A DNA stretch of 64,000 nucleotides, from the NCBI RefSeq assembly GCF_000189635.1, contig NW_002475958.1, positions 62,001 through 126,000 on the forward strand, read 5' to 3'. The notes below the pieces were generated by a model that searched no databases, was not told the origin of the DNA, and worked only from the letters and a program-made list of their open reading frames with translations. The position numbers and the translations under genes are program-made. Positions within the stretch are counted from its first letter, which is position 1. Every line of letters begins with the position of its first letter. Below, in pieces: positions 1 through 54,374 of the stretch. This DNA is from Tetrahymena thermophila SB210 (taxonomy: Eukaryota; Ciliophora; Oligohymenophorea; Hymenostomatida; Tetrahymenidae).

Positions 1-747
1 CCTTATTGTATTTTTTCTAAAATAAACATTAATGTTTTTGAACAAAGAATAACCAGATTACCAGAATGTATTTTATCCTATTGGCTTAAATGGGTTATTT
101 AAATCATTAGGGGATATAATATAATTGACATAATATAGCTAAAAGGCTACATCACTTAATTTTTATTGAATTACAGTTTAGTTTTGGCAATTAATTTCAC
201 AACTTTTAACTTAAATATAAAGCCTTTTATATTGCATAGCCCCAAACTAACCAGCTAAATTCATTTTGAAATTTAATGGAAAACAGTAGATATTACTAAA
301 CTTGAGCTATTTGAAGTAATCTACAGTTTGATTTACTTAAAAGTGATCTAATGTACAACGTTCCATTTTTATTGATTCGGCTACTGTTTTTTGATCGTAT
401 AAATTGGTTGTTTCATTATAAGTTTTGGTGGTTTCCAAAAGTTAAACTTCTAAATAATAAATTGACTCATCTAAAAAGTGAGCTAAGTTCTAATCCTATA
501 TACCCATAGCTAAAGTGTATTTCTTTTAATCAAAGACTACTTCATCAGGTTGCTAAACTAAATAATCTTAACTTACAATATTTGGGTTTGAATATTAAAA
601 GCACTAATCAAGAATATAAAATGAGTAAATGCAAACAATACTAACAATAATTATAGTAACTAAGCTTCCAAAAGCTGTTTTATGCTTTTAATTTTTTGAG
701 AGCATCATCTAAACAGGTATCCCAAATAAATCTAAGAATGAAAACAT
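1..747 (-). CDS. Membrane protein, N-terminal part (runs off the left edge)
   Basis: Read with TAA/TAG as Gln, the minus strand is open from the ATG at 747 to the window edge (249 codons, no TGA). The protein starts MFSFLDLFGIPVQMML and has one hydrophobic segment at about residues 29-47 (FGSLVTIIIVSIVCIYSFYI). A long, probably lumenal or extracellular region follows, with several Cys and N-glycosylation-type sites. The pattern NPFKPIGQNTFWQSGYSLF near the edge resembles a large ciliate family usually annotated only as putative transmembrane or cation-channel-family proteins; that resemblance is from memory and no function follows from it. The stop lies outside the window. Good codon quality and a sensible start make this a real gene; the product name stays open. 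Confidence 0.75.
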
Positions 748-48607: not shown

Positions 48608-50835
48608 TCAGTTTTTATTTTTGTAAAAGTGCTATGGAATATTTTTAATTTGCAAATCTAATTCGTTGATATTCATATTTTCAATCCAATCATTAAAAGA
48701 ACTAAGTTAATAGCTCTTATATTCATTCATATATTGTGGGAATATATCTTATAGCCTATCATGAATAAAACACCTATTGGCGCTTGAGCAAATAATTAAT
48801 CTAAGTTAGAATCTCTTTAACTCAGCCACTGTGTCCTCTGATAGGTTTTTTTTTTCTTAAATAATTTTATCAATAGATGATTAGAAACTTGAAAGCACTT
48901 TTCTAAATGTTTTTTTGATATTATTTTTAAAATCCTCATTTCCACTAAGAGTGCGTACCACTTCTACTTAATCGCTTTGTGCAAGCTAGGAATTTTTAAC
49001 ACCAAGTATTTAAAGATAGCTATGGAGCAAGTCTACTTTCATCTTTTTAACAAAGTTACTCAAATACTATTTTTGATTCTTTAGATAAAAATTTAATAAG
49101 TTTGATGATTGAATTGCAATTTAAGTAAAGTTTACCTTTTTATGTTCTGAAATCTTCCATAAATGCCATATGTCAGAATAAAATAAGTTTGTATCTTCTG
49201 ATTATAAACTATCCTATCCAAAGTGAAGGGCGCATTTAGTCAAGAAATATTTTAAGATAATTTTTTGTTTGTATTTAAAATTTTGAGAGTCCAAAATCAA
49301 TTCAAGAGTTTGCATAATAAATTCATGCCTAATCAGATTAAATATTTTAAATGAAATTCAATTAAATAGACATTAGATGTAATTATAGTGTATAAAAAAA
49401 ATTAATAAATAAATAAATTTTTACCTAGAAAAATGAACTGAGTAATAATACTGCAATTGATTTATACTATTTATGTTATCTTTTATCAGCTTGGAACGAT
49501 CGTAATATGAAATCAGCATAGATACTTCTAATTGTGAATTTTCTATTGCTTATTAACTTTGTTAGTTATAAACGTAAATAGACTAATTTTTTGGATACTG
49601 ATTCATATAGTTTGCTATTGTTTTTTGATCAACTTCTTCACCTATACTTCCTTTAGATGAATTTTTAAACTCTACACCTTTTTTAGCTCCTTCTAGTTCC
49701 ATGTCATAAATATATTTTTTATCTTAAACTGATTCTTCAGTACTATCGTCTTGCTAATCATCACCAACTTCAGAGCTTTCCTTACGCTTTGATTCACGGA
49801 AGCTATCAGTACCAAGCTACTCGTAAATTTCTCTCTCCTTTTGTAAGTTTTATAGGTATCCAACTATATTTTTTTATTAGAAAGTTATATAAATAAAATT
49901 ATTTTTGATAAAGCTATATGATAAATATCGTTCATTATTGAAATAAAAATTGAGGTAAAAAGTTTCTTCTTGAGCTTACTTGTAAAAATAGGATCTTATG
50001 AAAGTTAAATATAAGACATTCTTTTAGCTTGCATAAATTCAAAGATTTTTGAGAAGAAGTTATTCAATTTTTCATAATGCTCTTAAATCTATAAGTAAAA
50101 TTCTTTGTTAGGTACTTGTTTGGGATCAGAGTCAAGATCAAGAATTTGCTTATCTTTTAACAACTTCTTTAGATTAAAGTTATTTTTAAGCGTATATTCT
50201 TCGATCTCTTACAAATCAACAAAAGGGAATTAGCCAAAAACTAGGACAAAAAATATTACACCGAGTGTCCAAATTTCACTTTTTAAATCAATTGTTCCCT
50301 TTCCTATCATTTCAGGAGGTAGATATTCATTAGCAAAATAATAATTAATTATTTTATCTATATAAAGTATCCTGTAATCGCAAACTGCCAAACTTTGCAT
50401 GTTATTTCTAAAATAAATATTTTCAAGTCTTAAATTCATATGATACTATCTCTTTTCGTGGAGGCGGCTAATACCTCTAAAAACATCACCCAATACCTTC
50501 ACTGCTAATTTCAAGTCAAGTCTGCTTAAGTTATTATTAAGCATGTATTCTAAAATATTTCCTTCTTCAAAATATTCAACTACAAAATATTTTTGCTATA
50601 AATTATGGAACACATCAATAATTTTCTATAAGTGATTATTGTAAACTCCATCATTTTTTTAAAACTTATCTAAAATCCACTCAACTTTGCTTTCAGTATC
50701 GTCATTGTCATTCTTGTTAAAAACTTTCAAAATGTACTTCCTTCCATCTCTTTCAACAAGGAAATTTTAAAAAAGAGTTCCTTTTCCTTTATGCTCTAAG
50801 ATATGATATCCCCTTAAGCTATTTTTTTCTTACAT
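48608..50835 (-). CDS. ULK-like pseudokinase with a shared helical C-terminal domain
   Basis: Exons 50835-49980, 49863-49425 and 49328-48608 (introns 116 and 96 nt); 671 residues in phase. The fold of a kinase is clear (GYHILEHKGKG, Lys37 in YILKVF, PPEMIGKG, EIWTLGVIFFVLVFGQFPF), but the catalytic parts are gone. HRD is HMN (residues 132-134), the catalytic-loop Lys is Arg (NLRLEN), DFG is DYR (153-155), and the third glycine of the loop is Gln. It should not phosphorylate normally. An acidic linker follows (SSEVGDDQQDDSTEESVQD), then a helical region (IKKTFRKVLSSFQSSIDKII... LSSFNDWIEN) that parallels the C-terminus of the ULK-like kinase at 35,430. A regulatory or scaffold role is likely. 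Confidence 0.88.
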
Positions 50836-52807
50836 TCTATAAAATATTAGTTTTTCACCTTAATTTATATAAAATTATAAAGTGCTTTTATTTTATGTAA
50901 AGTTTATTTCAAAAATCTGCTTTAGTCAGCAAAAATTAAACAAAATAATATAAATAATATCACATATCAAATGATAATTTTTTTTCTCCATTCATTTTAC
51001 TTAAACTAATCTCTAAATAATATTAATTAAGCTGATATGATTTCGATATTTTAGTAGTGTATTTATTAATTCCTAGTTCAAAACTTAAAATGTTAGTCAG
51101 TTGATTACTTATGTGCTAAATTAGATCGCTAATTTGTAAAAAAAAAAACTAACTATGTTTACTTGATTCTTAAATTAGCAAAAGATCAAATTAAACATAA
51201 TTTTTATTCAATTTATATCATTTTTTATATGAATCTATTAATATTAAATTCAAGCATTTTACTTTTTTATCATTTTAAATTTCACCATCCATAATAATCA
51301 CACATTTTTTTGCAAATAAGTAAATTAATCTATATTAGCTATTATTACCCTACAATTTTTTCAAGCTAGTATAAATTTTAAGTGATCAAACTTTATGAAT
51401 ATTTATTTTTATTTAATTTTTTTAAATTTAAAACAATATTCATTTTATAAACTAAAACAAAGTATTTTTACAATTAAAAAAAATATTTACAAACTTAAAA
51501 ATGTCCATTGCTACATAAATTAAAATTTAGTTAGTTTTAAAAATAAAATAAAAATAATTATGAAATTAAATTTTATACTGTAAATATTAATCATAAATAC
51601 TGAAAAAATGTGATCAATATCGATTTTGTTTGTAATTTTATTTGAGCTTTATGCTCTAATAGTGTTTTATTTTTTAATTTTCATTTCTTTTTATTTTAAT
51701 TTTTTTAATGATTTGTTAGTAATTTGTTTGCTTAATTTTCTTGATTTTTTATTTGTTATTAGATGCAAGATGATTTATTTATAATCTTTTTTTTAAATTT
51801 TTTAAATTTTTTATTTCTTATTTTTGAATTATTTGTTTATTTTATTTTTGTATTTTTTTATTTATTTTCTTTTTATTGAGTCTCTATCATGTCATCTAAT
51901 TTTATCTTAAAAAATACTTTTTATATATGTTAATATATGATTGCAAAAATTATTGAACTGGAGAGTTTTAGGCGGGCAAGGATTTTAATTTGCTTTGAAT
52001 TACTTAATCTTTTTTTACAGTATTTATTTACATTCTGTTAGCTCGAGTTATACTGTAAGTATTTAATATTTAAAAACTTTTTAAAAGATTATTGCATTAA
52101 AAACTAGTTCAAAGCAAATTCCAGTTCAATTTATTCAGCATTTTGGTGAAAAAAATTTATGAATTGAAAAAATCTTAAAATAATTTATTTTAAAAACTTA
52201 GGGTTGGAATGAATTAATTATAGCATTTATTTTGTAGAATTGAAATACTATTTTACCAAAGATGGATAAAAGTAAAAGTGAGTATTTATTTCTACATTTA
52301 AAATGGCCATAGAGCGTTTGATTTTTCAAACAAACACATAGGATTTAAAAACTTTTCCAAAATATTATTTTAAGATATTTGCTTCAATTTCTCTTGTTTT
52401 TATTTGATTTTGCTTTTTTTTTTTGAATTTTTTTCTTTTAGATATTTTTGAATTAATTATTTATTTATAATTTATTTTCCTCTTTTTTCTTATTTCAAAA
52501 ATTTCTTTTTGATAAATAGTTAGTAGTATCTTAAGAATTTTTTTTAGCATTATCAACTATTTTATTGGGGGTTGTTTTTGGTTGAATTTAATATATAAAT
52601 AAATCAATGTGCTCTCTTAATTTATATAATTTATCATTTGATTTATTAATTATTTATTATGTGATTTAGTTAGTTAAAAATGTATCAATAATTAAGATTG
52701 TATTTATAAGTAGACGAAAGCTTTTATATTTTAATTTTACGATCAAAAATTAATAATAATATTAGTCATATATTAATTTACTCTTTTTAGGATAGTTTTA
52801 AAATAAT
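50836..52807. other. Long gene-free stretch holding a foldback RNA candidate
   Basis: Almost 2 kb without a convincing frame. The only strong signal is the nested inverted repeat at 51,952-52,130. A short open piece at 52,260-52,280 (ATG GAT AAA AGT AAA AGT before a GT) might be a leader exon of the Cwc21-like gene, but that protein's own start is already typical. Confidence 0.55.
51952..52130. ncRNA. Candidate structured RNA: nested foldback with a one-sided bulge
   Basis: Four perfect stems are stacked. The outer stem pairs 51,952-51,962 with 52,120-52,130 (11 bp). The second pairs 51,988-51,999 with 52,108-52,119 (12 bp). The third pairs 52,005-52,013 with 52,083-52,091 (9 bp). The innermost pairs 52,015-52,023 with 52,050-52,058 (9 bp). 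On the 3' side the outer two arms are continuous (23 bases), while the 5' side carries a 25-base bulge with the GC-rich core ggcgggcaagg. GTTCAAAGC at 52,107-52,115 fits the pol III B-box pattern GWTCRANNC, and a short T-run starts at 52,141. The strand is unknown; the B box favours plus. No known RNA family was recognised, and a foldback DNA element is the alternative. Confidence 0.5.
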
Positions 52808-54374
52808 ATGTATAACGGAATTGGCTTATAAACTCCCAGAGGTTCTGGTACTTCTGGCTATATTTAGAGAAATCTCAGTCACTTTAAAAAAGATCTGAGA
52901 AGTAGAGATGATTTCCTTAAAAAACTGAAAGAAATTCATGTAAAATATATTATATTCTAGTTTAGGGATATTCATTTTTTAATTTTATCAATAGGAAAAA
53001 CCAATTGAAATCAGAAAGGCTAATCCTGAAATTATAGAACATGAAAAAAAGAGAGAAATTTAAGTAAAGTTAATGGAGTTAAGAGATAAATTAGAAGAAC
53101 TAGGGTAATTTTTTAATAAAACAAATATAATCATTTATAGATGAGCCATTTTTGAATTAATTATTAGAGAAAGTGAAGATAAAATATAAGAAAAATTAAA
53201 TAAGTTGGAAGAAAAGCTAAGAACTAAAATGGAAAAGGGCGAAATAGATTTGTAAAATATTTTTTAAAAAGGTTAACATTATTAATATTCGATTTTTAAT
53301 TTGAAAAAGAACAAAGAATGATCACTCGAAAACAGTAGCAAAATAAAATGAATATGAAAAAATGAAAAATGCATTTTAAATTGAGGAAAAATACACTTCA
53401 GGAAAAGCATTTGGTAAGGACTATTTAAAGATTTTATATATTTGAATATTAACTAATATTACAAAAATTAATTAGACTTTGATGGATAAAAGAGAGAGAA
53501 AATGGAGAGAGAATATGAAAAAGAAGTAAAGAAAACTGAAAGAATTAGAGATTATATTGAGAAAAAAATTGAAGAGAAAAGACAGAAAAAAAGAGAAGAA
53601 AAAGAAAAAAGGAAAGAAGAGAAGAAAAGACTTAAAGCTGAAAAAAAAGAGAAAAAAAATCTTATAAAAAAACGTAGTAAATCATCAAGCAGTAGTGGAA
53701 GCGAAGGTAGTAGTGATGAAGAAAAAGAAGATTAAAAACAATAAAAAATATAATCAAAGAGATATCAAAGTGAAAGTAGTTCACCAAAGAGACAAAATGA
53801 ATCAAAAAATAGATAAAAAAAAGATTCTAGAGAATATAATCGTTAAGCAAGATCAAATAGTTCTTTAAGTAGTGGAGAGGTTTCATCAGATAAAAAAGGA
53901 AAAGAAAGTAAATATTAAGATTCAAGACAAAGAGACTATAAGTCATCAGATAAGAATAAATAATCAGGAAGAAATAGAAGAAGCCCTTCATCTGACTATG
54001 ATAAGAGAAGAAATAAAAATGAAAGCATGAGACGTAAAGCATCTTTATCTGATGAAGAGAAAAATAATGATAAACCTTTGAGATAAAGAAGATAGTCTTC
54101 AAACTCTCCAAAGGAGATTAAAGATAAAAATAAACCTGAGAGAAAAAGAAAGGAATCATCCTAATCATCAGGCAGATCAAAATCATCTTCTAACGAATCT
54201 CTATCCGGCTAATCTAAATAGCAATCCTCCGAATAGGAGAGTGGTTAATAATCTTCCGCTTCCTCATTATCATCAACTCCTCAACGTAAAAGAAGATAAT
54301 CAAGAAGTAGATCTAGATCTCCTAAAAAAAGTGAATCAACTAAATAGTAGTAACAAAAAAGTTATAGAAAGTGA
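52808..54374 (+). CDS. Cwc21/SRRM2-like spliceosome-associated protein with SR-rich tail
   Basis: Exons 52808-52939, 52995-53104, 53168-53251, 53310-53413 and 53476-54374, with short introns of 55, 63, 58 and 62 nt; 442 residues in phase. The N-terminus [20 protein letters not shown] is the hallmark of Cwc21/SRm300, whose N-terminal end contacts the spliceosome core. The cwf21 helix follows (KKREIQVKLMELRDKLEELG, then EDKIQEKLNKLEEKLRTKM), and then KQNEYEKMKNAFQIEEKY and GKAFDFDGQ. The second half is a charged Lys/Glu coil followed by a long Ser/Arg/Lys/Gln-rich tail (RRQSRSRSRSPKKSES), as in the metazoan protein. It is nuclear and acts in pre-mRNA splicing. Its own gene carries four short introns. 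Confidence 0.93.

Follow-up and report, generated by a model that had tools for sequence, protein, structure and literature searches.

For two Tetrahymena small nucleolar RNAs (snoRNAs), the part of PMC6315972 consulted places an upstream sequence element (USE) 98 and 118 bp ahead of the mature RNA, with a longer precursor for one of the two. RNA sequencing (RNA-seq) of T. thermophila has also uncovered 1,237 novel regions whose intergenic transcripts measure 300 bp or more; according to the consulted part of that report, some of these regions (a remaining 30%) may have no long open reading frame (ORF) that can be recognised (PMC3274533). Here, we analyse a 64-kb stretch of T. thermophila SB210 DNA (contig NW_002475958.1, positions 62,001 to 126,000; hereafter the window, numbered from its first letter), in which a preliminary description had singled out a nested foldback at 51952..52130. 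Based on genome-wide sequence comparison, we assign a probability of roughly 0.6 to the view that a non-coding RNA (ncRNA) gene of ~0.45 kb has this foldback as its 5′ domain and belongs to a set of 76 units dispersed over the macronuclear genome.

A shared box followed by a one-stranded motif

The foldback is preceded by a 22-bp AT-rich core box, TTAAAAAATACTTTTTATATAT, which is the sole match without mismatches in the window, with 23 bases between its end and the first stem. Its pattern, TWAAAAAATACTTTTTATATAT, recurs in the 101-Mb genome at 25 sites without mismatch and at 21 with one; when up to two mismatches are allowed, 195 sites stand against 163 for the reversed pattern, so that the signal merges with the background. 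Extending the core pattern by TTAATATA retained five genome sites (none in the control), and a looser core plus TWAATATADRATT recovered 11 places including the window (none for the reversed-pattern control). The looser core followed by AGAGAR within 3–33 nt yielded 47 matches, some of them overlapping, as compared to two for the reversed control; the window copy is not among these, since its leader reads GGAGAGTTTT. A second core form, TWAAAMAATACTAATTATATAK, was found at 34 genome sites with at most one mismatch, vs. two in the control.

Within the 400 nt downstream of the box and on the same strand, the 8-mer AAAAACTT was present at all 25 exact-core loci and absent from the opposite strand (0/25), while 9/100 control stretches of these loci contained it. 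One-mismatch loci gave 15/21 on the box strand and 0/21 on the other, and loci of the second core form, picked blind to the motif, 27/31 and 2/31, respectively. For two-mismatch loci, of which 44 of 149 sites were sampled in listing order, the counts were 5/44 downstream and 6/44 on the opposite strand; the five loci with the motif resemble true units by their leader or GC content.

The units collected so far number 76. The first 47 were chosen partly by the motif, which 45 of them carry, two (L037 and L064) having been added for their leader and GC content; motif counts on this set are circular, and the motif-blind counts are the 25/25, 15/21 and 27/31 given above. The 29 further units are the 31 second-form loci minus two (L133 and L143) that lack even AAAAACT, whereas two loci with AAAAACT only (L113 and L130) were retained among the 76. 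With this circularity in mind, the first 47 units hold 75 plus-strand and no minus-strand copies of AAAAACTT between +100 and +399 (83 and three between +22 and +599), and 46 of the 47 contain AAAAACT in one to five copies within 700 nt. When 168 8-mers of the same letters were ranked, AAAAACTT came top, being present in 72/76 units; the runners-up TAAAAACT, TTAAAAAC and AAAACTTA overlap it with a shift. Aligned motif copies revealed the consensus TTWAAAAACTT(A/T). Nowhere else in the window, on either strand, do three copies cluster within 300 nt as they do in the window unit.

The preliminary description had proposed a structured RNA of unknown class, which the box common to 25 places, the same-strand motif and structure above controls (see below) support, with transcription being what we infer. 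The unit in the window comprises:

51907..52424, plus strand: whole proposed unit from core box to T run, its limits estimated from the composition of this unit and 30 aligned loci
51907..51928, plus strand: 22-bp core box TTAAAAAATACTTTTTATATAT, promoter-like, containing the TATA-like TTATATAT; 25 exact genome copies
51930..51943, plus strand: AT box TTAATATATGATTG, adjoining the core and present in a subset of units; from the search with looser core plus TWAATATADRATT
51960..51965, plus strand: GGAGAG, corresponding to the GAGAGAATTT leader found in other units and possible transcript start region; from leader k-mers of 47 units
52072..52079, plus strand: AAAAACTT, motif 1, in the 3′-side unpaired gap between stems 3 and 4; motif scan and fold of 51945-52145
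52099..52105, plus strand: AAAAACT, a weaker copy, all but its last base unpaired between stems 2 and 3; motif scan and fold of 51945-52145
52192..52199, plus strand: AAAAACTT, motif 2; motif scan
52347..52354, plus strand: AAAAACTT, motif 3; motif scan
52414..52424, plus strand: T11 run, likely 3′ edge of the unit; T-run scan

Read on the box strand, the units are biased in composition, with G>C in their first part and T>A. Plus-strand T runs of at least 7 peak in the 76 units at +60..+120 (22 per 60-nt bin) and at +300..+420 (27 and 28). A runs of at least 7 are rare between +60 and +300, amounting to five in all 76 units, and base pairing between the early U run and the A5 motif is conceivable. 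The first 47 units show no coding signal, their longest TGA-free frame averaging 100.5 codons compared to 98.5 in shuffles.

All-against-all comparison of the 76 bodies revealed no shared sequence beyond AT-rich tails, the leader and one 27-nt antisense match. The latter joins L038 (G000:C94:169157), where it reads AAGTACTCAAGCAACCTTTATGATGTC, to L062 (C411:92754) at 96% identity, in opposite orientation and with an E value of 5e-7; a hairpin common to both, or the two RNAs pairing in trans, may lie behind it. Four pairs of units are spaced by only 1.4–2.3 kb (C164 60400/62671, C182 12567/13935, C248 50716/52494 and C278 403092/404526) and are dissimilar in sequence within each pair, the remaining units being spread over many contigs. 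There was no subtelomeric enrichment, with 15/76 units located within 20 kb of a contig end vs. 12.3 expected.

Structure of the foldback and its counterparts

The window foldback is built from four nested stems and one large bulge:

51952..52130, plus strand: nested foldback with stems of 11/13/9/9 bp; exact stem search, RNA fold z –2.73
51952-51962/52120-52130, plus strand: outer stem, 11 bp, perfectly paired
51987-51999/52108-52120, plus strand: second stem, 13 bp, perfectly paired
52005-52013/52083-52091, plus strand: third stem, 9 bp, perfectly paired
52015-52023/52050-52058, plus strand: innermost stem, 9 bp, perfectly paired
51963..51986, plus strand: 5′-side bulge of 24 nt with AGGCGGGCAAGG; stem search

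The stems of 11, 9 and 9 bp lie where they had originally been placed, but the supposed 12-bp stem actually measures 13 bp, and base 52120 is common to both outer stems. Equally confirmed were the uninterrupted 3′ arm (23 nt, 52108-52130) and the interruption of the 5′ arm by the bulge holding AGGCGGGCAAGG. That the foldback exceeds chance holds too, albeit by a modest margin: as a plus-strand RNA, 3/200 dinucleotide shuffles folded equally well, and nine of 912 window stretches of 211 nt had a lower GC-corrected energy. The minus strand gave a z of –3.99 with 0/200 shuffles equally good, and 20 of the 912 stretches below it. A whole-genome search with 51900-52200, which skipped simple repeats, recovered the foldback itself once only; three further matches (92–95% over 37–39 bp) all fell just 5′ of it, in the box region.

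Several other properties of the foldback were noted. A strong 5′-splice-site-like sequence, CTGTAAGTAT, resides within it on the plus strand at 52053-52062. The bulge was considered as a guide and rejected on exact matches: across the genome, its 13-nt complement recurs nowhere else without mismatch, and there are four places with one mismatch in addition to two-mismatch ones. A tRNA scan of the window returned none.

Structure above controls recurs across the family. When compared to dinucleotide shuffles, 45 motif-bearing units folded with a mean z of –1.75 (16/45 below –2), and 45 other box-like sites, among which L037 and L064 were counted, with a mean z of –0.03 (4/45 below –2; Mann–Whitney p 1.4e-7). 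The 29 further units reached –1.43, nine of them falling below –2. GC-weighted inverted repeats above a fixed score were found in 27/47 units vs. 1/43 look-alike sites. The motif itself tends to be predicted as single-stranded, its predicted unpaired value being 0.61 for AAAAACTT (n=80) vs. 0.43 for other A-rich 8-mers (n=519).

A swap test, in which the own +200..350 stretch of each unit was compared to foreign ones for pairing with +25..125, favoured own pairs both in the 47 units (Kolmogorov–Smirnov (KS) p 0.028) and in the 29 (KS p 0.0096), with 6/47 and 3/29 units individually at p≤0.05. The tail control gave KS p values of 0.48 and 0.73, respectively. The pooled regions had been chosen from a map of the 47 units, a choice in which the 29-unit set played no part. 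Across the 231 pairs of 50-nt stretches in that map, none had t < –3 and two had t > 3. By this test, long-range closing is a family trait of modest strength, though a repeated one.

A candidate RNA gene and its rivals

If the units are RNA genes, the 22-bp AT box (TTAAAAAATACTTTTTATATAT, or ...TACTAATTATATA... in its second form) would determine where plus-strand transcription starts, and the resulting RNA would fold through long-range helices that differ in sequence from unit to unit. One to five copies of UUUAAAAACUUA would be displayed in the unpaired stretches between helices, where a common protein or processing complex may recognise them, the helices serving to position the motif. Such a shared factor could be a stable ribonucleoprotein (RNP) protein, or else a processing or termination factor. 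The units would then act as a single class, of RNPs or of processed RNAs, in which the identity of each member is given by its variable parts. Given an ncRNA gene family, this docking of the motif has perhaps an even chance of being right. Slightly short of even, in our estimate, are the odds that the family represents an undescribed ciliate class of several dozen or more ncRNAs, each with its own long-range helices but all with the common, dedicated promoter box and nearly all with repeated, single-stranded UUUAAAAACUUA, acting as RNPs with variable, perhaps target-specifying domains.

Several observations weigh against an RNA gene of this kind. In the minimum-energy fold of 51945-52420, the three inner stems are kept but the outer 11-bp stem is re-paired, so the window unit is predicted to lose its outer stem once more downstream sequence is folded; nor was this unit significant in the swap test (p 0.447). 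The minus strand folds better in both sets of units (mean z –2.99 in the 45 units and –2.26 in the 29), and G-T mismatches in the helices are not in excess of A-C ones (22 vs. 19 at the threshold that gave 27/47). A looser finder counted 290 G-T and 187 A-C, where composition alone predicts 1.46 to 1. The better minus-strand folds and the lacking G-T excess do not single out the plus strand as the RNA and would also fit inverted repeats at the DNA level. As Watson–Crick helices in DNA richer in G+T can mimic a minus-strand bias, they are, however, no proof of minus-strand function, and we argue for the plus strand because of the motif, the order of box, leader, motif and T run, and the composition bias. 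Since the 76 include no homologous units, even within the four close pairs, there are no compensatory changes to be counted. Finally, the distance from box to leader varies, which makes the start site uncertain, and the –60..0 region upstream is elevated in GC without a conserved position, a rise that a simple TATA promoter leaves unexplained. Over –80..-1 before the box, where GC is raised, T makes up 45–51% and A 24–27%, and TTCTTTTT and TTCCTA words occur at no fixed position.

The main alternative, to which we give a minor but appreciable chance, is that the units give rise to Piwi-bound small RNAs by way of precursors, hairpin long non-coding RNAs (lncRNAs) of the Twi8p kind that are diced or otherwise processed. 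Farley and Collins, in 2017, reportedly described lncRNAs with a terminal hairpin. Helices that are mostly Watson–Crick (492/560 positions, though with a finder that selects for such pairs), unit-specific and strand-neutral are what double-stranded RNA (dsRNA) precursors can look like, and according to the consulted part of a review (PMC7792047), small RNAs from Tetrahymena ncRNA loci bind Twi8p and lower target lncRNAs. If this holds for the present units, the family could, wholly or in part, be one already described. Set against this, the perfect stems in the window are short (9–13 bp), the listed helices mostly span tens to hundreds of nt, and a single-stranded A5CUU in nearly all units would not seem to be needed for dicing. 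Rather improbable, in our view, is a role at the DNA level, in which the units control replication, chromatin or transcription, AAAAACTT is a directional binding site, and the inverted repeats either function as DNA or arise as by-products. A motif that is almost strictly one-stranded and begins ~100 nt behind the box speaks against DNA elements, as do the G>C (first part) and T>A biases on that strand, the late T runs and the location of the motif in predicted unpaired RNA, all of them traits to be expected in transcripts; the at least equally good minus-strand structure, the missing G-T excess, the conjectural transcription of the units and their four close pairs would all suit such elements.

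Two further explanations concern the foldback locally. The gene-free stretch around it is real: a minus-strand ORF encoding a protein kinase (Pfam PF00069, E 1.4e-22) starts at 50835, and the next plausible coding exon, at 52808, is short and readable with the ciliate code. We take this exon to be Cwc21-like; Pfam returned no match for its 44 residues. This presumed gene runs on the same strand as the unit, and CTGTAAGTAT within the foldback is followed by several T-rich AG sites, so that the unit could be conceived as a leader, that is, a 5′ untranslated exon ending at CTGTAAGTAT. We nevertheless judge this highly improbable, as the unit fades near 52400 and is separated from the start codon by ~380 nt of 12–20% GC DNA, the box recurs in the other 75 collected units, 71 of which carry AAAAACTT, and the unit bodies are unrelated to one another. 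Least credible of all is a chance foldback or the remains of a mobile element. Although 3/200 shuffles fold as well and 9/912 window stretches match it once corrected for GC, the association of box and motif is not produced by chance and already contradicts this explanation. A mobile family would share bodies, whereas these units have only AT-rich tails and the leader in common, and the search with 51900-52200 found the foldback once genome-wide; the suggestion of a foldback element is not borne out.

Should the ncRNA gene family be transcribed, a well-studied kind of model organism would harbour an entire class of structured RNAs, easily missed because the bodies share no sequence. With one box and one motif, this class is directly testable at 76 coordinates.

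Comparison with known RNA classes

Internal RNA polymerase III (pol III) promoters contain a B box of the pattern GWTCRANNC. The sequence GTTCAAAGC at 52107-52115, within the foldback, fits this pattern and had been read as such, but with four occurrences in the window vs. 9.3 expected by chance the pattern stands at chance level and lends an internal promoter no support. T runs of at least 6 lie inside +45..+245 in 29/47 units, and a T7 inside the window foldback. Provided that runs of this length stop the Tetrahymena enzyme, such early T runs make plus-strand transcription by pol III unlikely.

Searches against Rfam matched no family to any unit among the 44 of 76 scanned. In the 64-kb window there was no match at the gathering score, and the only matches at E≤10 in the 51600-52500 region were two at chance level (best E 2.8), neither of them in the foldback. 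L002–L004 returned none, 20 further loci none at E≤1, and another 20 loci two tRNAs only, both near one box (L019). These tRNA genes are arranged in tandem at 109-182 and 256-329 on the minus strand, 1.2–1.4 kb from the box, and score equally. The box C/D pattern RTGATGA ... CTGA at 30–100 nt occurred in 1/76 units and in 1/76 shuffled ones. A loose H/ACA pattern (ANANNA, ACA and two hairpins) was present in 60/76 units vs. 68/76 shuffled sequences and is uninformative in A-rich DNA.

In this genome, the U2 small nuclear RNA (snRNA) and telomerase RNA genes carry CCATAAAA at about –60, which is probably the USE of Tetrahymena snRNA and snoRNA genes described in the consulted part of PMC6315972. 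Between –80 and +50 relative to the box, none of the 76 units contains CCATAAAA, nor do window positions 51750-51960. The match to the ciliate telomerase RNA family scored 161.9 bits and ends in T8. Nine U2 matches lie on two contigs (G000:C329:199766-209036 and C3:47902-48695); five on C329 score 99–104 bits vs. 146–150 for the other four, and the four of these low-scoring five that were read have altered 5′ ends.

The family can thus be set beside several described systems. The units differ from USE-type snRNA and snoRNA genes in lacking CCATAAAA (all 76) and any Rfam snRNA or snoRNA match (44 scanned), but share with them, as described in the consulted part of PMC6315972, short length, independent encoding and a compact upstream box. 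The intergenic regions from RNA-seq were compared by description only, and no shared-box class is named in the consulted part of PMC3274533. Among the titles and abstract openings found in literature searches, none described the box, the motif or such a class. Type 3 pol III genes such as that for telomerase RNA resemble the units in combining an upstream box with a terminal T run, whereas 17/47 units have T runs of at least 7 inside +45..+245, which would be expected to halt pol III early. We know of no shared box or A5CUU motif at Twi8p loci. They are, like the proposed units, non-coding RNA loci in the same kind of genome, as portrayed in the consulted part of PMC7792047.
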